46,193 bases of DNA from Bacteroidia bacterium (lineage in GTDB: Bacteria > Bacteroidota > Bacteroidia > Bacteroidales > UBA932), in contig JAUMVX010000018.1 of NCBI GenBank assembly GCA_030529945.1, positions 1 to 46,193 on the forward strand. Reading direction: 5' to 3'. This document shows positions 8,369 through 32,501 of this stretch, one piece after another. The position numbers and the translations under genes are program-made. How positions within the stretch are numbered: the stretch's first letter is position 1; every line of letters begins with the position of its first letter. The notes beneath the pieces are model-generated. The model worked only from the letters and a program-made list of their open reading frames with translations. It searched no databases and had not been told where the DNA came from.

Positions 8369-8393
8369 GATACTTCTCTTGACAAGAGATGTA
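8369..8393 (+). repeat. Left inverted repeat of the switch
   Basis: 25 bases beginning GATACTTCTCTTGACAAGAG; perfect reverse complement of 8562-8586. Confidence 0.95.
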
Positions 8394-8439
8394 TCGGAAC
8401 GGTCGCACATTTGTAACTGGCTGAAAAATAAATATTTAC

Positions 8440-8451
8440 GGGGGGGGGGGG
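8440..8451 (+). repeat. 12-G homopolymer inside the invertible segment
   Basis: Twelve consecutive G residues about 90 bases upstream of the promoter box. It is the longest G run in the window and is expected to vary in length by slippage. Its effect is unknown. Confidence 0.85.
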
Positions 8452-8541
8452 CCATTTAGATTTCCGTAAAAAACTCAGAATTAATGCTTTATTTTTGTTG
8501 ATTTTTATCGGGAATGATGCTATGAATGTCAGTTTATTTAG

Positions 8542-8549
8542 TACCTTTG
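8542..8549 (+). promoter_or_regulatory. Promoter -7 box of the capsule operon
   Basis: TACCTTTG matches TAnnTTTG. Transcription should begin about 7 bases later, just before the right inverted repeat, so that repeat becomes part of the leader. No clear -33 TTG is seen at the usual 19-21 base spacing. Confidence 0.7.
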
Positions 8550-8561
8550 CAATCCGGCAAG

Positions 8562-8586
8562 TACATCTCTTGTCAAGAGAAGTATC
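8562..8586 (-). repeat. Right inverted repeat of the switch
   Basis: 25 bases that are the exact reverse complement of 8369-8393. Confidence 0.95.
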
Positions 8587-8631: not shown

Positions 8632-8719
8632 GAACTTATGAATCAGCTATCGGTAACTGCTTAATCTGCAAAAACTTTTGAGATTATGCAGGATAGTCGT
8701 TGTAATCTTATTCCGAACT

Positions 8720-9268
8720 ATGACAGGGCAAAAAGCGGACAGTAAGGAAAAATGGTACGTTATGCGCGACCTCACGCGGCCTAACGCAAAGCTCCCGGCA
8801 TACAAGCGCTTCGTCGACGGCGGCTTCGAGGTCTTCACCCCGATGAAAGAAAAGCTGTCCGTTCAGGGCGGCAAGCGCGTCAAGGAGCAGGTGCCTTTCA
8901 TTCACGACCTGCTCTTCGTCCACGGCGCCCGAGAGGACATAGACCCTGTAGTGCGGAATGTCCCCACCATTCAGTATCGCTTCGTCAAAGGCGGCGGCTA
9001 CCTGAACCCGATGACCGTGCGGGACTCGGATATGGAGAAGTTCATCATCGCCGTGAAGTCATCGGAAGACCCGAAGTATCTTTTGCCGGACGAAATCACT
9101 CCCGCCATCTGCGGAAAGAGAATAAAGATCATAGGAGGCCAGCTGGACGGATTCGAGGGCAAGATGCTGAGCGTCAGGGGGTCGAGAAAGAGGCATCTGC
9201 TGGTGGAACTTCCGGATTTCCTTGCCGTCGCGGTGGAGGTGAATCCCGACTATGTCAAGTTGCTCTAA
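8720..9268 (+). CDS. upxY: UpxY family NusG-like transcription antiterminator
   Basis: A 182-residue NusG N-terminal-domain protein plus KOW-like tail. Segments typical of UpxY are KWYVMRDLTRPNAKLPAYK near the start, VPFIHDLLFVHGA in the middle and GGQLDGFEGKMLSVRGSRKR near the end. In Bacteroides, UpxY proteins prevent premature termination in the leader of their own capsule operon. ATG at 8720 is preferred over an upstream TTG frame because family similarity begins there. It is the first gene after the invertible promoter. No upxZ-type inhibitor gene follows, unlike many Bacteroides capsule loci. Confidence 0.93.
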   Translation: MTGQKADSKEKWYVMRDLTRPNAKLPAYKRFVDGGFEVFTPMKEKLSVQGGKRVKEQVPFIHDLLFVHGAREDIDPVVRNVPTIQYRFVKGGGYLNPMTVRDSDMEKFIIAVKSSEDPKYLLPDEITPAICGKRIKIIGGQLDGFEGKMLSVRGSRKRHLLVELPDFLAVAVEVNPDYVKLL

Positions 9269-10578: not shown

Positions 10579-11142
10579 ATGCAGGAGAAAGAATATTACG
10601 TCCACCCCTCCAGCTACGTGGATGAGGGCGTGACCATCGGGAAGGGCACAAAGATCTGGCACTTCTCCCACGTGCAGAAAGGAGCCGTGATCGGGCGCGA
10701 CTGCTCGCTCGGACAGAATGTCAACGTGGGGAACAATGTCCGCATAGGTAACGGAGTTCGCATTCAGAACAACGTCTCCGTCTATGAGGGCGTGGAGCTT
10801 GAAGACAATGTCTTCTGCGGTCCTTCCTGCGTGTTCACCAATGTCAACACGCCGCGAGCCCATTTCCCGGTGCACGGTGTGTATGCCAAGACCGTCATCA
10901 GAGAAGGAGCCTCCCTCGGAGCGAACTGTACGGTGGTCTGCGGACACGATGTGGGCAGAAGCGCTCTCATCGCTGCGGGAGCCGTGGTTACGAAGGACGT
11001 CAAGGATTATGCCCTTATGGCCGGAGTTCCCGCCCGTCAGATAGGCTGGGTGTGCGAGTGCGGAAAGAAACTTGACGGGAGCCTCAAATGTCCTTGCGGA
11101 CGGGAATACTTGCTGCAAGATGATGTGCTCAGAAAAAAGTGA
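10579..11142 (+). CDS. wbpD: UDP-GlcNAc3N-acid 3-N-acetyltransferase (WbpD-like, left-handed beta helix)
   Basis: A 187-residue hexapeptide-repeat acetyltransferase. Repeats such as VTIGKGTKIWHFSHV, IGNGVRIQNNVSVYEGV and ALIAAGAVVTKDV build the beta helix, and FTNVNTPRAH carries the likely catalytic-loop residues. The product would be UDP-GlcNAc3NAcA. The C terminus has four cysteines (CECGKK and CPCGREY) resembling a small zinc ribbon, a feature seen in WbpD relatives. It sits directly after wbpA, consistent with one pathway. Confidence 0.87.
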   Translation: MQEKEYYVHPSSYVDEGVTIGKGTKIWHFSHVQKGAVIGRDCSLGQNVNVGNNVRIGNGVRIQNNVSVYEGVELEDNVFCGPSCVFTNVNTPRAHFPVHGVYAKTVIREGASLGANCTVVCGHDVGRSALIAAGAVVTKDVKDYALMAGVPARQIGWVCECGKKLDGSLKCPCGREYLLQDDVLRKK

Positions 11143-11147
11143 CCCCT

Positions 11148-12365
11148 ATGAATATGAATGCGGGAGCAGATGATTCTGACCGGAATGCCATACCTATGGA
11201 AGAGAGCGGGGTCGAAAGAATAGTTTGTGACGGAAGGCCCGAAACCTCAGCGGAATATGATGAGTTCAACGGGGAGCGGGTAGCAAGCGTCTCGGAGACA
11301 TCTGTCACGGACGAGGACTTCAAGCGACTGATGGAGGCCACCTCCGCTCTGGACGAAGACGAGACATTGGCCTGGATAAAAACCAATTCCGGCTCATTCT
11401 CGCCCGAGACCCTCATCGCGGACGAAACGAACGGCAGAGACCTTTCCCTGCCGCAGAAGAGTCTGGGCGCAGTCGTTATGTTGAGACCGTTCAACGAGAT
11501 AGCCCACTTGGACACTTTTCTGACCGCAGTGAATGAAGCTCTGGAGGACGGCGGCTACATCTGGTGTCACTGTAGCACGGCCGCTCTGCATAAGAAGAAG
11601 ATAATGGAGAAGTGGCCGCCGGTCTTGAACAGTATCGTTTACTTCTGTCATTATCTCGGGCACAGGGTTATGCCCAAGGCGAGGCTGACCAAACGGCTGT
11701 ACTTCGCTCTGACAAAGGGTAAACAGCTGGACTACCATCGGGTGGAGGTGCTGGGAAGACTTTACCGTGCCGGGTTCGATGTCATCGACGAGTCGTTTCG
11801 GGGGGCGCATTACTTCGTGGCTGCAAGAAAGATAAAGGCTCCCATAAAGGATGACGAACCGACAGGCTCTCCTCTCATCAGGCTCCGCAGGACAGGAAAG
11901 GACGGGAAGATTATCAGAGTGTATAAGTTCCGCACGATGTACTCCTATAGCGAGTACCTTCAGCCATACATCTACAAGTATAACAGACTGGCGGAAGGCG
12001 GAAAGTTCGCCGATGACTACCGCGTGAGCAGACTAGGACACTTTATGCGCAAATACTGGATCGACGAGCTGCCGATGTTCATAAACCTCATAAAAGGCGA
12101 GATGAAGCTGGTGGGCGTGCGCCCTCTGTCGCAGCACTATTTCAGCCTCTATACCCCGGAGATGCAGGAACTCCGCATCAAGGTCAAGCCCGGACTTCTG
12201 CCGCCTTTCTATTACGACAAGACCCGTCCCAAGACCATAGAAGACGTGCAGGAATCTGAACGCCGCTACATCGAAGCCTATCTGCAGCACCCCTTCCGTA
12301 CCGACTGGCGGTACTTCTGGGGGACATTCGGGAATATAGTGTTTAAGGGAGCGAGAAGCAAATAA
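11148..12365 (+). CDS. Polyprenyl-phosphate sugar transferase domain behind a methyltransferase-like N terminus
   Basis: The C-terminal ~190 residues form the catalytic core of WcaJ/PglC-type phosphoglycosyl transferases, which load the first sugar-phosphate on undecaprenyl phosphate: VYKFRTMYS, the Asp-Glu pair in YWIDELPMFINL, and KLVGVRPLS. The usual N-terminal re-entrant membrane helix is absent. Instead residues ~100-240 look like the end of a SAM-methyltransferase fold (VNEALEDGGYIWCHC and LGRLYRAGFDVIDESF), and the first ~90 residues are acidic and probably disordered. ATG 11148 is used; a GTG at 11139 overlaps wbpD. Role as the initiating transferase is inferred from the locus. Confidence 0.82.
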   Translation: MNMNAGADDSDRNAIPMEESGVERIVCDGRPETSAEYDEFNGERVASVSETSVTDEDFKRLMEATSALDEDETLAWIKTNSGSFSPETLIADETNGRDLSLPQKSLGAVVMLRPFNEIAHLDTFLTAVNEALEDGGYIWCHCSTAALHKKKIMEKWPPVLNSIVYFCHYLGHRVMPKARLTKRLYFALTKGKQLDYHRVEVLGRLYRAGFDVIDESFRGAHYFVAARKIKAPIKDDEPTGSPLIRLRRTGKDGKIIRVYKFRTMYSYSEYLQPYIYKYNRLAEGGKFADDYRVSRLGHFMRKYWIDELPMFINLIKGEMKLVGVRPLSQHYFSLYTPEMQELRIKVKPGLLPPFYYDKTRPKTIEDVQESERRYIEAYLQHPFRTDWRYFWGTFGNIVFKGARSK

Positions 12366-17829: not shown

Positions 17830-19305
17830 ATGGATGAAATACAAGAGAAGGCCGTAAAAGGGTCTTTATGGACTCTGATTGAGCGGTTCGGATTCCTCTC
17901 GATACAGTTCGTCTCGCATCTGGTTCTGGCAAGAATACTTATGCCGGATGATTTTGGAACAGTAGGCATATTGTTGATATTTACCAACTTGTCGATGGTT
18001 TTTATTGACAGTGGGTTAGCCACGGCGCTTATTCAGAAAAAAGATGCTACAAATATAGACAATGCTTCAGTATTCTACACAAACTTCTCAATAGCGGTTT
18101 TTGTTTACCTAATAGTTTTTGTAGGAGCTCCGTCAATTGCAAATTATTTCAACAACCCTAACATTACTACATATCTTCGGGTTATAGAACTGATGGTGAT
18201 TATTGATTCTATTTGCGCTATACAGAATACTCTGCTGGTAAAGCAGATGAAATTCAAAGAAATAGCCAAACTGAAAATCATCGCGGTTCTGATTTCAGCA
18301 TCGTCAGCCATAATCTGTGCTCTATGTGGGTTAGGAATATGGTCGCTTGTCATCCAGTATCTTACATTCAGCGTTGCCAGATCTTTTCTGCTCTGCCATT
18401 ACTCCAGGTGGAAGCCAGTCTTGCAATATAGCCTCACATCAATGAAACAATTATGGGGATTTGGAATAAAACTATTGGGAGCATCGCTTTTAAGCGAGTT
18501 GTACATCAATCTGCAATCAGCCATTATAGGCAAGCGTTTCACAGCTGCAGATTTGGGTTATTACACGCAAGCGAAGCAACTTCAAAGAGTCCCGGAGCAG
18601 GCAATATCTGCAATGATTAACAATGTATCTCTTCCTGCTTATGCTCAATTACAGGATGAGAAAGGACGATTCAAGGCTATGGTGCAGCAGAATATTCGCC
18701 TGATAGCATTCCTTAACACCCCCATTATGGTATGTCTGGCTATTCTGGCAGAACCTCTTATAGTGTTTCTATACACTTCAAAATGGCTCCCCTCAATCCC
18801 TTATTTTCAAGGATTATGTATAGGTTTCAGCCTTTTACTTGTCGTTCATAATTGTAATCTCACAGCTCTGAAAGCACTTGGCAGGAGCGACTATGTTTTG
18901 TATTTGGAGATAATTAAAAAGGCGATAGGGGTATGTCTCCTTTTATACTTTACGAAGATTTGCGGAGTCTTCGGCATAATCATAGGATTGGCAGTTAACA
19001 GTGTATTGGAATTTTTCCTCAACGGAGCTTTTTTGGGCAGAGAAATCGGATATGGGCCTTTTTCACAATTAAGGGATATCATAAGTCCCATTCTCTTATC
19101 CGCAGTAGCCGGGTCTGGAACCTGGCTGGTTGTGTTCAAATTAGTTGGAGGAACAGCAAACATTCTTCAAATCCTTGTAGGAGGAAGTGTTTTTATGGCA
19201 TTATACTTCAGTGGGGCATATATTCTCAAGTTACACGAGTTATATATGACAAAGAAGGTCTTGGATGTAATATTGGTCAACTTTAGAAAAAAGAAAGGCG
19301 AGTGA
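17830..19305 (+). CDS. wzx: Polysaccharide flippase (Wzx, MOP superfamily)
   Basis: A 491-residue integral membrane protein with about 12-14 hydrophobic segments. The N terminus (KGSLWTLIERFGFLSIQF) and RILMPDDFGTVGILL are typical of the WzxC/polysaccharide-export branch of MOP transporters, which flip undecaprenyl-linked repeat units to the periplasm. The downstream ATG overlaps closely (stop 19305, next start 19308). Confidence 0.9.
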   Translation: MDEIQEKAVKGSLWTLIERFGFLSIQFVSHLVLARILMPDDFGTVGILLIFTNLSMVFIDSGLATALIQKKDATNIDNASVFYTNFSIAVFVYLIVFVGAPSIANYFNNPNITTYLRVIELMVIIDSICAIQNTLLVKQMKFKEIAKLKIIAVLISASSAIICALCGLGIWSLVIQYLTFSVARSFLLCHYSRWKPVLQYSLTSMKQLWGFGIKLLGASLLSELYINLQSAIIGKRFTAADLGYYTQAKQLQRVPEQAISAMINNVSLPAYAQLQDEKGRFKAMVQQNIRLIAFLNTPIMVCLAILAEPLIVFLYTSKWLPSIPYFQGLCIGFSLLLVVHNCNLTALKALGRSDYVLYLEIIKKAIGVCLLLYFTKICGVFGIIIGLAVNSVLEFFLNGAFLGREIGYGPFSQLRDIISPILLSAVAGSGTWLVVFKLVGGTANILQILVGGSVFMALYFSGAYILKLHELYMTKKVLDVILVNFRKKKGE

Positions 19306-20520: not shown

Positions 20521-21527
20521 ATGCAACGATTAGCATATATAGATTTAGCTAAGGCGGTGGCGATAACACTGATGATTCTCTGCCATTGTGGCTTCCAGAA
20601 TATAGCCACAGTGTGGATTTACGCTTTTCATATGCCCTTCTTCTTCATCGTTTCGGGGTATCTATCTGAAGGGAGGACCCACAGAACATCTTTCCATAAA
20701 TGGATAAAAACTAAAATTAGTGCATTGTTTGTGCCATACCTGCTTTTTGGCTTGATATATAGCTTTGGCACAAACGGTTATCTTGACTGGTGTTACATCG
20801 GATATGCAAGTAGAGACTCTATCCAGATAGCTCAGTCGTTCACCCCTCTGTGGTTTCTGCCTTGTTTCTTTCTTTCATCTGTATTGTATGATGGAATTAA
20901 ACGCATCGTGAAAAACAATAAAGTCCGTCTGTATATTGTCGGGGGGGGGTAGGTATAATAGGTTTATTTATAGGTAGATATGCGCCTGCGCTTGGTTTCC
21001 CATTATCAGCGAATATTGCTTGTGTCGGAGTTTTATTGATGACCATTGGTGATATGCTGGCTTTCTTCAGGAGGGCATTCCCCAGTATCGCTTCCTCTAT
21101 TTGGACTGTAATTTCTATGCTTGTCATAGGTTCTGCTATAGCTTTTATTAACCGCCCGATATCACTTAATCCAGCACTTCCACACGTGGAAGTGTCTACT
21201 GGCAGCTTCGGTTGTTTCCCACTATTTCTAATGTCATCTACAGCGTTATCTTATTCATTGATTGAATGTTCGAGAATTTATTCCGATAAATTGGGTACGC
21301 GCAAACTATTTTTGACAATTGGTGAGTATTCGCTGTCGATATTGTGTATTCATGGGTTGCTTATGACATTATCCAAGCATCTTTTACAGATAGTTCCTTA
21401 TGCTTTTAATGATGTCTGGACTGCTATAATAGAAACCATAGTCGTTATTCTTTTCAGTCTGCTTGTGATTCGTGTTGTCTTACCGCTTGCGCCAAATGTG
21501 TTCGGGCTTAAAAATGCATCCAATTGA
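20521..21527 (+). pseudogene. Membrane O-acyltransferase, frameshifted at a 9-G run (phase-variable, OFF as assembled)
   Basis: An acyltransferase-3 family protein: AYIDLAKAVAITLMILCH and FAFHMPFFFIVSGYLS-like segments begin it, followed by several membrane helices. The frame stops at TAG 20950-20952 right after nine Gs (20941-20949). Downstream a second frame continues without interruption from the run (VGIIGLFIGRYAPALGF) to 21527 with more helices. One added G, or loss of two, would join the halves into a 335-residue protein of normal family length. The next gene overlaps the stop by ATGA, showing that the downstream frame is the real one. Expected action: O-acetylation of the glycan. Confidence 0.88.
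20941..20949 (+). repeat. 9-G phase-variation tract in the acyltransferase
   Basis: Nine consecutive Gs. The present length gives Gly-Gly-Gly-stop; 10 or 7 Gs restores the frame. Confidence 0.9.
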
Positions 21528-22594
21528 AATTACTGATTATACATAAGACGCAGTTTGGCTACCATAATAATGCTTTCAAGCTATGTCAATATCTGAAAGA
21601 CAGGATTGACATCACGTATATCTGTTTTGATGGCCACAAGAAAATAGAGGAACCGGATGTCACAGTAAAGTATGTCCCGGTATGTTTCCCGAAGCAAATC
21701 AGAGGGGTCTTATTTATGTTGTTATCTCTCTTCTATACGTTGATATGGAGAGGGGGCATTCTGGTTTATTATTTCCCGGGATGCGAATGGTATAAGAGGC
21801 TATCCAGAAGAAAGAAGATGTTGCTGGACATCAGAACCTTAAGTGTGTATGAGGACGAAAAACGAAACCAGAAAGAAGATGAACGCATCAAAAAGACTGC
21901 AGGCAGATACGACTTTGTGACTTTTTTATCAGAGGAAATGCGCAATAAGATAGGATTTAGTCGGGACAAGTCTGCCATAGTACCACTTGGTGCGGATGTC
22001 ATCTCAACATCCGCTAAGGTGTATATCCCAATCAAGTTACTTTATGTCGGGACCTTTATGAACAGGAAACTTGACAGGACATTGGAAGGATTAAAGCGGT
22101 TTGTCGATAACAATCCTACTGCTCAGATAGAATACCATATCGTGGGAGATGCAGGAATGAATCATCGTGATGTAGAAACGCGACTTCAAGATTATGTGGA
22201 TCAGAGTGGCTTAGGCAGTATAGTCTTTTTTCACGGTAGGATTCCTAACAAGGATTTGAAACCTTTGTTCGACCTATGCAATGTTGGTGTTTCGTTTGTC
22301 CCTATCACTCCTTATTTTGATTTCCAGCCGGTGACGAAGACATTCGAATATGCGATGTCCGGGCTGTATGTCATTGCAACTAAAACATTTGAGAATCGAC
22401 AAGTGATAGATGAACGCAATGGAATACTAATAGGTGATACACCGGACTCTTTTGCAAACGCTCTTCAGTACATATATGAAAACAACGAGCGTTTCGATGA
22501 ACAAGTTGTAAGGAATTCCCTGTCGGATTACTTATGGAGTACTATCGAAAACAAACGTATGTATCCCGTTTTGGATGCGTTGTTCAACGAATAA
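21524..22594 (+). CDS. Glycosyltransferase, family 4-like (GT-B)
   Basis: A 356-residue GT-B protein. The C-terminal domain has LLYVGTFMNRKLDRTLEGL, YHIVGDAG and the donor-binding region YFDFQPVTKTFEYAMSG with a Lys-Glu pair, followed by VIATKT. A hydrophobic stretch near residue 65 (LFMLLSLFYTLIW) may mediate membrane contact. The start overlaps the acyltransferase stop. Sugar donor and linkage cannot be told. Confidence 0.83.
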   Translation: MKLLIIHKTQFGYHNNAFKLCQYLKDRIDITYICFDGHKKIEEPDVTVKYVPVCFPKQIRGVLFMLLSLFYTLIWRGGILVYYFPGCEWYKRLSRRKKMLLDIRTLSVYEDEKRNQKEDERIKKTAGRYDFVTFLSEEMRNKIGFSRDKSAIVPLGADVISTSAKVYIPIKLLYVGTFMNRKLDRTLEGLKRFVDNNPTAQIEYHIVGDAGMNHRDVETRLQDYVDQSGLGSIVFFHGRIPNKDLKPLFDLCNVGVSFVPITPYFDFQPVTKTFEYAMSGLYVIATKTFENRQVIDERNGILIGDTPDSFANALQYIYENNERFDEQVVRNSLSDYLWSTIENKRMYPVLDALFNE

Positions 22595-26203: not shown

Positions 26204-26644
26204 ATGTTCAACGCAATCCATTTTTACAGGGTTTCAAGATGGTTATACGTTCATCACGTCCCTTTCCTGCCAAAACTGATTACACTGCTGATTTTTCTAC
26301 TTTACAATAGCAAGGTCCCATACCAAGCTGAAATCGGTAAAGGAACGAGGCTTGGGTATGGAGGCATAGGGGTTGTAATTCATACGGATTGTAAAATCGG
26401 GTCTTATGTAGTTATAGGTCAGAATGTTACACTGGGGGGGGGTAATTCCAGATTTCCCGGTGTGCCTACAATAGGTGACAATGTGCATATCTACCACGGG
26501 GCTGTGGTATTCGGTGGCATCAGTATAGGCAACAATGTGACAATAGGGGCTAATTCTGTTGTAGACAAACCTGTTCCCGATAATGCGGTTGTCGCGGGAG
26601 TTCCCGCAAAAGTCTTGAAATTCAAGGAGAATACGGAAGTATGA
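26204..26644 (+). CDS. Serine-acetyltransferase-like hexapeptide acyltransferase with an in-frame 9-G run (ON)
   Basis: A left-handed beta-helix O-acetyltransferase of the CysE-like group found in capsule loci: MFNAIHFYRVSRWLYVHHV, then GKGTRLGYGGIGVVIHTDC, IGDNVHIYHGAVVFGGI and VVAGVPAKVLK. ATG 26204 has AGGGGA just upstream; an alternative ATG at 26138 overlaps the previous stop by ATGA and would give 168 residues. Nine Gs at 26434-26442 encode Leu-Gly-Gly-Gly, so the gene is readable now, but gain or loss of one G would truncate it in mid-helix. Probably acetylates the polysaccharide. Confidence 0.85.
   Translation: MFNAIHFYRVSRWLYVHHVPFLPKLITLLIFLLYNSKVPYQAEIGKGTRLGYGGIGVVIHTDCKIGSYVVIGQNVTLGGGNSRFPGVPTIGDNVHIYHGAVVFGGISIGNNVTIGANSVVDKPVPDNAVVAGVPAKVLKFKENTEV
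26434..26442 (+). repeat. 9-G tract in the CysE-like acetyltransferase
   Basis: Nine consecutive Gs in frame within the beta-helix coding region. It has the same length as the run that breaks the acyltransferase at 20941. Confidence 0.88.
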
Positions 26645-26796: not shown

Positions 26797-27954
26797 ATGG
26801 CAATAATAGAGAGAAAGTTGAAGGCAGCCGTTGAGGAGAATTTACAGTATTTCTCCGCAGTGACGGTAACGGGCCCCCGTCAATCGGGCAAGACTACGCT
26901 GATTCGGGAAATGTTCCCGGACAAGCCTTATTTCTCGCTGGAAAACCCCGACACGCTCGACTATGCGTTGACCGACCCCGTGGCGTTCCTGGGACAATCC
27001 CCCGACGGAATGATATTGGACGAAGTCCAAAATGCTCCGCACCTTTTGTCGTACTTGCAAGGTGTGATTGATTCCCATCGCGAGGCTCGGTACATCCTTT
27101 CCGGTTCAGCTCAATTCAATTTGCTTAAGAGTGTCACACAGTCTCTTGCGGGGCGCACGGCGATGCTGGAGCTGCTGCCCTTGTCTGTGGAAGAGATTGA
27201 CCATTCGGCTATGAGTGTCGACAGGCTGCTTACAACCGGTTTCTATCCAGCCATACATGCAGGTCAGAACATTCCCCGGTTGTTCTATCCAGCCTATGTG
27301 AGCACATACTTGGAGCGTGACGTGCGACAGTTGCAGACGGTGAAGGATCTGCGGCAATTCCAGTCTTTCGTGCGTTTGTGTGCCGGGCGTATCGGCAGTA
27401 TATTCAATGCCAGCGAGCTGTCCGGTGAGGTGGGCATAGCGGTGAACACGGTAAAGGCTTGGCTGTCCATACTTCAAGCCTCCTACATCGTATTTCTGTT
27501 GCCTCCGTATCATAGCAACACGAAGACGAGGCTCGTGAGAAGTCCGAAGCTGTATTTCTATGATGTAGGGCTTGCGAGCTATCTGCTTCGTATCGACGGC
27601 GAGGAACAGATGCGTACGGACAGGATGAGAGGACATCTGTTCGAGAATATGGTAATTGCCGATTGCGTAAAAAGGCTGGCGAACGGGGGAAAGACCGCTG
27701 ACTTGATGTTCTATCGCGACTCCCACGGCAATGAGACTGACCTGCTCATACCTGATGGAGGCCGTCTGACAGCCGTCGAAATCAAATCGTCCCAGACCTA
27801 CAACAGTTCGTTCGAGCAGGGGCTGACGCGGCTGAAAGAAAGACTTGGCGACACGTTAGAGAGGCGCATCGTGATCTACGATGGAGAGCTGGAGCGTCGT
27901 GACGCGGAAATCGAGTTACTGAACTACAGAAGTTTTCTGGTAGAAAACATCTGA
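26797..27954 (+). CDS. AAA ATPase with DUF4143 domain
   Basis: A 385-residue ATPase: Walker A GPRQSGKTT (residues 26-34), Walker B MILDEVQNAP, sensor-like ILSGSAQFNLL, and a C-terminal DUF4143 region ending in a nuclease-like fold (FYRDSHGNETDLLIP and AVEIKSSQTY, giving Asp and Glu-x-Lys). This family is abundant in Bacteroidales, and its function is unknown. It has its own promoter and GC content above the flanking capsule genes, so it looks like an insertion into the locus. Confidence 0.87.
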   Translation: MAIIERKLKAAVEENLQYFSAVTVTGPRQSGKTTLIREMFPDKPYFSLENPDTLDYALTDPVAFLGQSPDGMILDEVQNAPHLLSYLQGVIDSHREARYILSGSAQFNLLKSVTQSLAGRTAMLELLPLSVEEIDHSAMSVDRLLTTGFYPAIHAGQNIPRLFYPAYVSTYLERDVRQLQTVKDLRQFQSFVRLCAGRIGSIFNASELSGEVGIAVNTVKAWLSILQASYIVFLLPPYHSNTKTRLVRSPKLYFYDVGLASYLLRIDGEEQMRTDRMRGHLFENMVIADCVKRLANGGKTADLMFYRDSHGNETDLLIPDGGRLTAVEIKSSQTYNSSFEQGLTRLKERLGDTLERRIVIYDGELERRDAEIELLNYRSFLVENI

Positions 27955-28026: not shown

Positions 28027-29601
28027 ATGGGAACATACATCAACATAGGGAACGCGGGGTTCCAGTCGGCGAGGAACAGCGAGTACGTGGACAAGTCGGG
28101 ACTGATAGCCGTCGTGAACAGAACTTTGTTCAGCGAGGCACGGTTCAGCTGCGTGACGCGCTGCCGCCGTTTCGGAAAGTCTATGGCGGCGAAGATGCTT
28201 TACGCCTACTACGACAAATGGTGCGACTCGCGGAGTCTGTTCGAGGATTTGCAGATTGCCCGGGAACCGGGCTTCGAAAAGCATCTGAACAAGTATCCGG
28301 TGATTTATCTGGATTTAAGTGATTTCGTGACGAGGTATAAGGATGAAACGATAGTACGGAAGGCAGATGCGGAGTTAAGAGCTGAAATTCAAGTAGTTTA
28401 CCCCGATATTCCTTTACGGGAGGGGGATGATTTGATGAGCTACCTCGTTCGTGTAGTCGATGAAACCAAAGAACCGTTCATCTTCATCATCGACGAGTGG
28501 GATGCAATCTGCAGGGAATTCAGAGCAGGGACATCAGCTATGGACGAGTATGTCGATTGGCTGCGCCGGATGTTCAAAGGCGGCCTCTCCCAGCAGGTGT
28601 TCGCGGGGGTTTATATGACCGGGATTCTGCCCGTCAAGAAATACAGGACGGAGTCGGCCCTGAACAACTTCATCGAGTATTCTATGGTGGATCCGGGTGA
28701 TATGGCGGGATATTTCGGTTTCACGAAGGATGAAGTCCGAGAACTGGCCGGGAAATATCGTGCTGATTTCGATGATCTGGAGAAATGGTACGATGGCTAC
28801 AGGATAGGCGGAGAGACATCGATGTTCAATCCTAATTCCGTGATGATGGCCCTCCGGAAGAAGTGGTGCACAAGCTACTGGGGGAAGACGGGAGCCTTCG
28901 ATGCGGTGGCTGACTACATCGGGATGAATTACGAGGGACTGAAGGATGACATTATCTATATGCTCAGCGGTGGCAGAGTGAATGTCAACACCACCAAATT
29001 CCAGAATGATATGTCGGTCATCCGTGACAAGGATGACGTGTTGACGGTGCTCATCCATCTTGGATACCTCGCATATGACAGAGAAGAGGAAGAGTGTTAT
29101 GTGCCCAATTTCGAAGTTTTCTGCGAGATGTCAAACGCCGTGGAGCGCACTGACTGGACTAATGTCATCGCTGCTCTGGAAGATTCCAAGCATCTTCTGA
29201 GGGCAACGCTTCGCGGCGATGAAGAGGCTGTAGCGCGGGGCATAGACCAGGCCCACGATGAAAACACGAGCATCCTCAGCTACAATGACGAGAACTCCCT
29301 TTCCTGTGTCTTGAGCTTAGCCTACTACTATGCCAGGAACGACTATATCGTGCGCCGGGAACTGGCAGGTGGGAAAGGCTTCGCCGACTTGGTGATGATT
29401 CCGAGAAAGAATGTGAGCAGTCCGGCGCTGGTCATCGAGCTGAAATATAACAGGGACGCAGATTCCGCCATCCGGCAGATTAAGGAGAAGAACTATCCCG
29501 AGGGCATCGCTGAGCATAAAGACAATCTGCTTCTCGTCGGCATCAGCTACGACCGCGAAACCAAAACCCACAGCTGCCGGATAGAAAAGTATCGGGACTG
29601 A
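28027..29601 (+). CDS. AAA-ATPase-like / PD-(D/E)XK nuclease protein, copy 1
   Basis: A 524-residue protein with an AAA-ATPase-like N-terminal domain (Walker A RRFGKS at 47-52, Walker B FIFIIDEWDA at about 150-160) and a C-terminal PD-(D/E)XK (DUF1703-type) nuclease domain in which ADLVMIP supplies Asp and ALVIELKYN supplies Glu-x-Lys, near residues 451 and 470. Function is unknown; the family is widely amplified in Bacteroidales. It has its own TAnnTTTG box (TACCTTTG) about 30 bases before the ATG. It is followed by a paralogue of identical length. Confidence 0.87.
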   Translation: MGTYINIGNAGFQSARNSEYVDKSGLIAVVNRTLFSEARFSCVTRCRRFGKSMAAKMLYAYYDKWCDSRSLFEDLQIAREPGFEKHLNKYPVIYLDLSDFVTRYKDETIVRKADAELRAEIQVVYPDIPLREGDDLMSYLVRVVDETKEPFIFIIDEWDAICREFRAGTSAMDEYVDWLRRMFKGGLSQQVFAGVYMTGILPVKKYRTESALNNFIEYSMVDPGDMAGYFGFTKDEVRELAGKYRADFDDLEKWYDGYRIGGETSMFNPNSVMMALRKKWCTSYWGKTGAFDAVADYIGMNYEGLKDDIIYMLSGGRVNVNTTKFQNDMSVIRDKDDVLTVLIHLGYLAYDREEEECYVPNFEVFCEMSNAVERTDWTNVIAALEDSKHLLRATLRGDEEAVARGIDQAHDENTSILSYNDENSLSCVLSLAYYYARNDYIVRRELAGGKGFADLVMIPRKNVSSPALVIELKYNRDADSAIRQIKEKNYPEGIAEHKDNLLLVGISYDRETKTHSCRIEKYRD

Positions 29602-29674: not shown

Positions 29675-31249
29675 ATGGGAACATACATCAACATAGGGAA
29701 CGCGGGGTTCCAGTCGGCGAGGAACAGCGAGTACGTGGACAAGTCGGGACTGATAGCCGTCGTGAACAGAACTTTGTTCAGCGAGGCACGGTTCAGCTGC
29801 GTGACGCGCTGCCGCCGTTTCGGAAAGTCTATGGCGGCGAAGATGCTTTACGCCTACTACGACAAATGGTGCGACTCGCGGAGTCTGTTCGAGGACCTGG
29901 AGATTGCCCGGGATTCGGGCTTCGAAAAGCATCTGAACAAGTATCCGGTGATTTATCTTGACGTGACGGGTTTCGTGACGAGGTTCAGGGATGAGACTAT
30001 AGTGAGGAAGGTAGATGCGGAGTTAAGAGCTGAGATTCAAACAGTTTACCCCGATATACCTTTGCGGGAGGGGGATGACCTGATGAGCTACCTCGTTCGT
30101 GTTGTAGATGAAACCAGACAGCCGTTCATCTTCATCATCGACGAGTGGGATGCGATCTGCAGAGAATTCCAAGCCGGAACGTCAGCTATGGACGAGTACG
30201 TCAACTGGCTTCGCCGTATGTTCAAGGATGTGAACAGCAGCAGCGTATTCGCAGGAGTCTATATGACAGGGATTCTGCCCGTCAAGAAATACAAGACGGA
30301 ATCGGCCTTGAACAACTTCATCGAGTATTCGATGGTGGAACCGGTAAATATGGCGCCGTTCTTCGGTTTTACGAAAGAGGAAGTGAAAGGTCTTGCGGCA
30401 AAGCATAAAATGGACTTCGATGATCTGGAGAAATGGTACGACGGGTATAAGATTGGTGATGAGCAATCGATGTTCAATCCGAATTCCGTAATGCGGGCTA
30501 TCGCATCAAGACGTTGCCGCAGTTTCTGGGCCTTCACTGGTTCTTTCGAGTCTGTGGCGAAATACATCAATATGAATTTCGACGGGCTGAAGGATGACAT
30601 CATCAAGATGTTGGCCGGAGGCACTTCTATGGTGGATCCTACGGGTTTCACAAACGATATGTCCGTGGTCAGGAACAGGGATGATGTGCTGACCGTGCTG
30701 ATTCATCTGGGTTATCTGTCATTTGACTGGGTGAAGGGCGAGTGCCGGATTCCTAATCTGGAGGTCGCGGGAGAGATGGTGAACGCGGTGAAAGCCAATG
30801 AGTGGAGTTATGTGATGAAGTCTCTGGATGCCTCCAGACAGCTTCTCCAAGCGACGATTGACGGGGATGAGGAGGCTGTCGCTGAAGGTATCGCGGCTAC
30901 CCACAGTACCGGGACGAGCATTCTGAGCTACAACGATGAGAACTCCTTGGCTTGCGTGATAGGGATCGCGTACTATTACGCCCGCGACAAATACTCCATT
31001 CACAGGGAGTTCCCTTCCGGGAAAGGCTTCGCCGACTTGGTGATGATTCCGAGAAAGAATGTGGACAGTCCGGCGCTGGTCATCGAGCTGAAATATAACA
31101 GGGACGCAGATTCCGCCATCCGGCAGATCAAGGAGAAGAACTATCCCGAGGGCATCGCTGAATATAAAGACAATCTGCTTCTCGTAGGCATCAGCTACGA
31201 CAGGGAAACCAAGACCCACAGTTGCCGGATAGAGAAGTTTCGGGCATAA
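29675..31249 (+). CDS. AAA-ATPase-like / PD-(D/E)XK nuclease protein, copy 2
   Basis: A second 524-residue member with the same motifs as its upstream paralogue (RRFGKS, FIFIIDEWDA, ADLVMIP, ALVIELKYN). About 70 bases before the start, the first ~280 coding bases and the last ~230 are nearly identical to copy 1, while the middle (about residues 170-440) is clearly diverged. This mosaic suggests gene conversion of the ends, or exchange of the middle. A TATCTTTG promoter box lies in the duplicated upstream block, and a terminator hairpin follows the gene. Confidence 0.87.
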   Translation: MGTYINIGNAGFQSARNSEYVDKSGLIAVVNRTLFSEARFSCVTRCRRFGKSMAAKMLYAYYDKWCDSRSLFEDLEIARDSGFEKHLNKYPVIYLDVTGFVTRFRDETIVRKVDAELRAEIQTVYPDIPLREGDDLMSYLVRVVDETRQPFIFIIDEWDAICREFQAGTSAMDEYVNWLRRMFKDVNSSSVFAGVYMTGILPVKKYKTESALNNFIEYSMVEPVNMAPFFGFTKEEVKGLAAKHKMDFDDLEKWYDGYKIGDEQSMFNPNSVMRAIASRRCRSFWAFTGSFESVAKYINMNFDGLKDDIIKMLAGGTSMVDPTGFTNDMSVVRNRDDVLTVLIHLGYLSFDWVKGECRIPNLEVAGEMVNAVKANEWSYVMKSLDASRQLLQATIDGDEEAVAEGIAATHSTGTSILSYNDENSLACVIGIAYYYARDKYSIHREFPSGKGFADLVMIPRKNVDSPALVIELKYNRDADSAIRQIKEKNYPEGIAEYKDNLLLVGISYDRETKTHSCRIEKFRA

Positions 31250-31400: not shown

Positions 31401-32501
31401 ATGTGCCAAGACGAGTTTGAAAAGATTGATAAAAACCAGTGGGCAGAATTACTGAAGAGTTCTTCCCATAGGAGTTTCTTTCAGAGTCCCGAATGCTATG
31501 GCCTCTACAAGGCGATGTCCTTTATGACGCCTTTTGTCTATGCAGTAAGCAATCAAAGTGCATTGAAGGGTGTCATTGTCGGCTATGTCCAGAAAGACGG
31601 CGGTGCGATAAAATCGTTTTTGTCTCGCCGGGCGATTATCAATGGTGGACCGCTGGTTGCTGATGATATAACGTCCGATGAATTCAAGGAACTGCTTATC
31701 ACCTGTAGAAAAGGCCTCAAAGTCAAAGCGATATATGTAGAAACGAGGAACTTTGAAGACTACTCCACCTATAAGACGTTGTTTGAGGAATGTGGGTTTA
31801 AATATGTTCCTCACCTAAACTTCCACATAGATACGTCATCTATGGAGGTCGTGGAGAGCAATATGGGGAAAAGCCGCAAGCGGGACATCAGAGTTTCGTT
31901 TCGAGACGGTGCCTCTGTCGTTGATGACCCTTCAGATGAACAGGTCGTGGAGTTCTATGCCGTGTTGGAACAACTGTACAGGACGAGAGTTAAGACTCCC
32001 CTTTATCCATTGTCATTCTTTCAGTATTTGGCGAAGCAAGATTATGCCAGATTTCTGCTTGTGGAATATGGCGGGCATATAGTGGGAGGAACCGTATGCG
32101 TGTGCTTGCCGGAATATGCCGTTTATGAATGGTTCGCCTGCGGAGAAGACGGGGTGCATAAGAACATCTTTCCGTCCACTGTCGCCACATATTCGGGAAT
32201 CAAATATGCGGCTGAAAACGGTTATGGACACTTTGATATGATGGGAGCCGGAAGTCCAGACAAAGGATATGGTGTCAGGGACTTCAAGGCCAAGTTCGGG
32301 GGAGTTTTAGTGGAACACGGGAGATTCAGAAACGTATTGAATCCTGCGCTATATGGCGTAGGAAAACTTGGTGTGGCCGTGATGAAGGGAGAATTGTCTA
32401 AACAATTGAGGGGGGGGCAGATACGACTTATCGATTACTGGAGACGGTTATGGCCGCGTAAAAAAGATGGCGGCATAGCCGCTGATGACGATAAGCCGTA
32501 G
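31401..32501 (+). CDS. FemAB-like acyl/aminoacyl transferase (GNAT fold), first copy
   Basis: A 366-residue protein with the double-GNAT pattern of FemAB/peptidoglycan bridge transferases: FFQSPECYGLYKAM near the start, SRKRDIRVSFRDG, and the C-terminal hallmark FDMMGAGSPDKGYGVRDFKAKFGG. Relatives in polysaccharide loci are thought to attach amino acids or acyl groups to sugars. An 8-G run (32410-32417) lies in the last 30 codons (Leu-Arg-Gly-Gly-Gln). A similar gene follows, 56 bases on. Confidence 0.83.
   Translation: MCQDEFEKIDKNQWAELLKSSSHRSFFQSPECYGLYKAMSFMTPFVYAVSNQSALKGVIVGYVQKDGGAIKSFLSRRAIINGGPLVADDITSDEFKELLITCRKGLKVKAIYVETRNFEDYSTYKTLFEECGFKYVPHLNFHIDTSSMEVVESNMGKSRKRDIRVSFRDGASVVDDPSDEQVVEFYAVLEQLYRTRVKTPLYPLSFFQYLAKQDYARFLLVEYGGHIVGGTVCVCLPEYAVYEWFACGEDGVHKNIFPSTVATYSGIKYAAENGYGHFDMMGAGSPDKGYGVRDFKAKFGGVLVEHGRFRNVLNPALYGVGKLGVAVMKGELSKQLRGGQIRLIDYWRRLWPRKKDGGIAADDDKP
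32410..32417 (+). repeat. 8-G tract near the 3' end of the first FemAB-like gene
   Basis: Eight Gs in frame. A length change would alter only the last ~28 residues, leaving the GNAT core intact. Confidence 0.75.

Follow-up and report, generated by a model that had tools for sequence, protein, structure and literature searches.

A capsule-locus acyltransferase gene interrupted at nine Gs, a probable poly-G contingency gene in a Bacteroidales genome

Within a polysaccharide locus on the stretch of Bacteroidales DNA analysed here (46,193 nucleotides, hereafter the window), an acyltransferase gene is broken by a stop codon that directly follows nine consecutive Gs. From the anatomy of this gene, and from the tracts found in its operon and among related loci, we consider it likely that this is a poly-G contingency gene observed in its truncated state. 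Poly-G slippage of capsule acyltransferases is already a known kind of variation; what is new is the apparently repeated origin of such tracts within one genus. Below we describe the interrupted gene and its setting, document the occurrence of G tracts in this genome and in others of the genus, and weigh the alternative explanations where the evidence bears on them.

The acyltransferase gene and its break

The interrupted gene and its downstream neighbour comprise the following features.

20521..20952, + strand: acyltransferase gene, first part (PF01757; 143 codons, then TAG)
20941..20949, + strand: frame-breaking G9 tract
20952..21527, + strand: acyltransferase gene, second part, in a frame offset by one base (191 codons and TGA)
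21524..22594, + strand: glycosyltransferase gene, its TTG start overlapping the far stop of the acyltransferase gene (TTGA)

The frame that opens with ATG at 20521 ends at TAG (20950-20952), immediately 3' of the tract, and from the tract onward a frame shifted by one base stays open as far as TGA at 21525-21527. Neither part contains a further stop or is otherwise decayed, and a stretch of 191 stop-free codons has a chance of about 2.7e-5 at the local composition. An initial annotation of this DNA had described a stop right after nine Gs in an otherwise intact gene, with the next gene overlapping the true stop, and both particulars were borne out (TTG at 21524 against TGA at 21525-21527). Its further statement, that one G added or two removed would restore a protein of 335 residues, agrees in its frame arithmetic with the open frame offset by one.

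When the two pieces were searched apart, they proved to be consecutive parts of a single family, PF01757 (Acyl_transf_3, a Pfam family of length 326 with a curated cut-off of 31 bits). Piece 20521-20949 matched positions 2-153 of the family (6.2e-18; 65.4 bits, above the cut-off), and piece 20952-21524 matched positions 190-324 (8.7e-6; 25.4 bits, below the cut-off on its own). A small profile of homologues from the genus likewise placed the pieces in order, at 17-138 and 190-314 of 322; only the order is taken from this profile, because several of its rows, representing minus-strand loci, were in the wrong frame. Two features that define a contingency gene are found together here: a long repeat in the coding region where a change of length alters the frame (the G9 tract at the break), and an intact remainder of the gene.

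The polysaccharide locus and its upstream inverted repeat

Genes of the surrounding locus encode two UDP-sugar dehydrogenases, an initiating sugar transferase, epimerases, a flippase, glycosyltransferases and an aminotransferase. The locus starts with an UpxY family gene that scores over its cut-off, and an inverted repeat lies upstream of that gene.

8369..8393, no strand assigned: left arm of a perfect 25-bp inverted repeat (putative invertible promoter)
8440..8451, + strand: G12 tract between the repeat arms, outside genes
8542..8549, + strand: TAnnTTTG box, predicted promoter -7 element, between the repeat arms and pointing at the operon
8562..8586, no strand assigned: right arm of the same 25-bp inverted repeat, 168 bases from the left arm
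8678..9268, + strand: UpxY family transcription antiterminator gene (NF033644, 136.8 bits, cut-off 100)
11139..12365, + strand: initiating sugar transferase gene (PF02397)
17830..19305, + strand: flippase-type polysaccharide export gene (PF13440)

A second TAnnTTTG box occurs at 8490, also on the operon strand and between the arms. We take the TAnnTTTG consensus to be a -7 promoter element, and the boxes at 8490 and 8542 to represent the predicted promoter; inverted repeats thus flank a predicted promoter, as in UpxY loci. The invertible-promoter polysaccharide loci of Bacteroides fragilis are UpxY loci. The core of the repeat is unique in the genome to these two arms, even when up to three mismatches are allowed. 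By its anatomy, the inverted repeat spanning 8369-8586 is probably an invertible promoter, and a perfect 25-bp repeat around a predicted promoter suggests that an inversion switch probably governs the operon too.

A role for the G12 tract between the arms in switching promoter spacing was considered but not retained, the tract being some 90 bases upstream of the box at 8542. Also inside the polysaccharide locus are two tandem 524-codon genes (28027-29601 and 29675-31249) with AAA-ATPase_like and PDDEXK_9 domains, adjoined by an AAA_14/DUF4143 gene (26797-27954).

Poly-G tracts in this genome and across the genus

The operon holds a second intragenic G9 tract, in another gene predicted to encode a transferase of this general kind.

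26204..26644, + strand: hexapeptide (EpsC/CysE-like) acetyltransferase gene, frame kept (NF041874, 105.5 bits, below the cut-off of 150)
26434..26442, + strand: second intragenic G9 tract, in frame, 5.5 kb from the first

The genome (2.28 Mb in 93 contigs) contains 14 tracts of at least nine Gs, three of them inside the 46-kb window (p 0.003). Two of the 14 are clearly intragenic (20941-20949 and 26434-26442), and both sit in acyl- or acetyltransferase genes of this operon. A third tract of the genome (L007) was flagged at threshold on one side by one score; it is counted outside genes, since the ORF that follows starts at an ATG of its own past the tract. We estimated chance expectation by synonymous recoding of the 25 coding pieces of the locus with their own codon use. 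At least one run of nine or more Gs appeared in 574 of 5000 trials, at least two in 30, and at least three runs of eight or more in 3 of the 5000, the observed runs being of 9, 9 and 8. Since roughly one recoding in nine yields it, a single G9 run is unremarkable; the pair in one locus is unusual. The run of eight (32410-32417) keeps the frame and lies close to the 3' end of a gene for a FemAB/GNAT-like protein (31401-32501).

Homologues of the two enzymes were sought with a sampling of one genome per species, so that the comparison is one between species. No close homologue of the broken acyltransferase gene was found in the sets searched: the first piece had matches in 24 of 151 genomes, its own included, the strongest of the others at no more than 35% identity, and the second matched in its own genome and one other (29% identity) of 400. 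A further search for homologues of the broken gene retrieved five distant actinobacterial loci, and a scan of viral contigs revealed no copy of the site with another tract length. Among loci with related PF01757 genes, 3 of 25 carry a tract of G8-G11 in the gene, one of them being the window's own. The others are L028, with an in-frame G8, and L032, whose in-frame G9 precedes the conserved start, within a short leader. At another of the 25 loci (L025:3021-3029), a fourth tract, an in-frame G9, lies at the beginning of the ATP-grasp gene that neighbours the acyltransferase gene.

The hexapeptide acetyltransferases provided the closer relatives. Tracts of G8-G11 lie within the gene at 5 of 43 such loci in the genus (own included), and the two nearest homologues both carry one, elsewhere in the gene: L204 (52% identical) has G9 in frame, and L205 (53% identical) has G8 with the frame broken at the tract. 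Two further homologues share one aligned position, at which L235 has G10 in frame and L236 has G11 out of frame. Altogether, three of the eight tract-bearing genes are out of frame, and tract positions mostly differ between genes. By comparison, no tract of at least eight Gs was found anywhere in 30 control loci bearing the best-scoring PF01757 genes from 180 genomes of the genus. These genes were best matches only and none had an internal stop, so that the set was used as a control and not as a census; one scan took in the gene at 23 of these loci and the full locus at 5 others, and a second took in all 30 loci in full.

As a count of genes, the contrast with the control is weak: 8 of 68 loci against 0 of 30 (p 0.047), 6 of 66 without the window's own genes (p 0.098), and 5 of 43 for the hexapeptides alone (p 0.064). 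Placement of the tracts is firmer evidence than the gene count. In the 68 loci, 8 of 10 tracts of at least eight Gs fall in the hit gene and not in its flanks (p 0.0004), as do 6 of 8 when the window's own tracts are omitted (p 0.004); for the PF01757 loci alone, 3 of 4 do so, which is not significant (p 0.11). The motif GGG is partly structural in hexapeptide proteins, and this counts against a reading by slippage. At eleven hexapeptide loci belonging to other genera in the order, no tract of at least seven Gs was seen, and the pattern may accordingly belong to this lineage.

These comparisons bear directly on the alternative that fares best, namely that the acyltransferase gene suffered a one-off frameshift in a mutation-prone run and is a fresh pseudogene with no evolved, reversible switching. 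We regard this as unlikely. It draws support from the frequency of single G9 runs in the recodings (574 of 5000) and from the lack of a close homologue in the genus that would show constraint, and a 2025 review urges the same caution: in section 6 (PMC11868660) it holds that 'phase variation' requires reversible change at a high rate and warns of accidental tracts, giving siaD as a case. Yet neither half of the gene shows other decay, the same operon holds a second tract, and homologues carry tracts elsewhere in the gene, both in and out of frame. A contingency gene remains our preferred reading of the break.

G tracts of greater length are widespread in the genus: 121 of 260 genomes have tracts of ten Gs or more. 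Codon scoring of 150 distinct tracts among the matches listed placed 12 inside genes, 5 of these with a change of frame, and 138 outside genes; by the score used for comparison with random positions, 129 of 140 were outside genes. By that comparison, the frame changed at 5 of 11 intragenic tracts, against 33 of 847 random coding positions. Nine tracts near a locus edge were left out of codon scoring, as were tracts near contig ends in G118, G185:C160, G098:C38, G191:C1, G108:C82, G106:C72, G176:C15, G093:C135, G142:C74, G119 and G018:C57. The five frame-changed genes encode two SusC-like receptors (L076 and L094), a sensor with Reg_prop repeats (L077), a Sel1-repeat protein (L124) and a DUF3575 protein (L135), and in all except L124 both pieces match domains expected of one protein. 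In these four genes of relatives (L076, L077, L094 and L135), the frame is broken at G10 tracts. The SusC-like and Reg_prop matches, like the UpxY match in the window, agree with an assignment to Bacteroidales, and the genus may be Cryptobacteroides.

The intragenic counts are a minimum, because the scores miss low-GC capsule genes: the codon score passed over the window gene itself (L017) and L138, which lies at the same place as L235, and both were found later by homology. A second, composition-adjusted score gave 5 shifted and 5 in-frame tracts among 144 of at least ten; L094 and L135 are absent from its set and L142 and L236 are new to it, and it likewise misses L017 and L138. A control with runs of A or T yielded few cases: at length 8, 2 intragenic runs with one shifted, and shifts at 5 of 17 runs of length 7 and 39 of 350 of length 5-6, which indicates that in AT-rich places the scoring itself produces some spurious frame changes.

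In several genomes, long G runs also recur in the first 150 bases or so of contigs and look like sequencing or assembly artefacts (G018:C57, G118:C207 and G185:C160). With homopolymers being error-prone in general, these three cases lend some substance to the idea that the tract length in the window is an error of sequencing or assembly and that the real gene is intact. We judge this quite improbable. The G9 tract lies in the middle of its contig, between flanks that are unique, and breaks of this class recur in separate genomes. Family searches or translations of other polysaccharide genes in the window showed each of those checked to read through, among them a gene with a G8 and another with an in-frame G9. 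Less probable still is that ribosomal or transcriptional slippage on the G run allows expression with no change in DNA, for although a run of Gs right before a stop is a plausible slippery site, the homologous tracts lie elsewhere in the gene and some are in frame, which a conserved recoding signal would not predict.

Known systems and the proposed switch

A poly-G contingency gene in a capsule locus has close counterparts, which we compare from parts of the cited sources. In Campylobacter jejuni, phase-variable capsule and glycan genes contain intragenic tracts mainly of G9-G10 (PMC8355987), and as here a tract in this range lies in genes that add non-essential modifications to the capsule; switching in that organism has been measured as reversible, unlike here, where it is proposed from sequence. 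Campylobacter jejuni also belongs to another phylum, and the operon described here has in addition an apparent invertible promoter. Nearly the same pairing occurs in cps1 of Akkermansia muciniphila (PMC13343947), likewise a gut capsule locus, which combines an inverton with an acyltransferase gene, amuc_2098, bearing long mononucleotide repeats. That species too is of another phylum; the repeats there are at the end of amuc_2098, and slippage is only suggested in that case as well.

NeuO of Escherichia coli K1 (PMC3046976) provides an example of capsule O-acetylation controlled by slippage. It resembles the second gene of this operon as a hexapeptide-family capsule acetyltransferase with a repeat inside the coding region, and differs in that its repeat is a heptanucleotide near the start codon and the gene is prophage-borne. 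Within the phylum, a 2010 paper suggested that slippage occurs in an O-acetyltransferase gene belonging to a Bacteroides polysaccharide locus (PMC3090145). Bacteroides fragilis shares with the present locus the invertible promoter regions before polysaccharide loci and a frameshift in a gene linked to O-acetylation, for which slippage was proposed as a source of variation; as described in that source, the frameshift lies at a run of four Cs, with no long tract, and the genus is another. A slippage switch has also been reported for the pili of gut Bifidobacterium (PMC9187656). Among the papers listed by a literature search that reached few subscription papers, none demonstrated poly-G phase variation in Bacteroidales.

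By the mechanism we propose, the acyltransferase, a predicted integral membrane protein of family PF01757, would add an acyl group, probably acetyl, to a capsular sugar. Slippage during replication would alter the length of the G9 tract, presumably reversibly, and so alternate between a full-length product and one that ends after 143 residues, the state present in the assembly. The hexapeptide acetyltransferase would switch independently through its own in-frame G9 tract, and inversion of the putative promoter may turn the whole operon on or off, so that capsule diversity would comprise an on/off choice for the whole capsule and two independent decorations. Translational coupling might also be lost in the broken state, since the start of the glycosyltransferase gene and the stop of the acyltransferase gene overlap, and expression of the glycosyltransferase may then fall. 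The earlier proposal of a contingency locus is supported in part. It agrees with the anatomy and family of the gene, with its place in a capsule locus and with what is seen in related genomes; the proposal's description of the gene as 'switched OFF' applies to one assembled sequence.

More tentatively, and with rather less confidence than we place in the single gene, we suggest that the capsule acyl- and acetyltransferase genes of the genus, along with some SusC-like and sensor genes, have acquired poly-G tracts time and again, at various glycine codons. The outcome would be a two-tier switch, in which the invertible promoter would determine whether the capsule is made and independent G tracts would determine its decoration. 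The slippage idea is directly testable, as existing metagenome reads allow tract lengths to be counted. Capsule variation in gut Bacteroidales is attributed in the cited literature mainly to DNA inversion, and a lineage-wide pattern of tracts, if it holds, would be real news. Should one-base slippage in the decorating enzymes form a further layer of variation, a capsule type assigned from one assembly, or from the state of an inverton alone, would miss part of the diversity in antigens and phage receptors.
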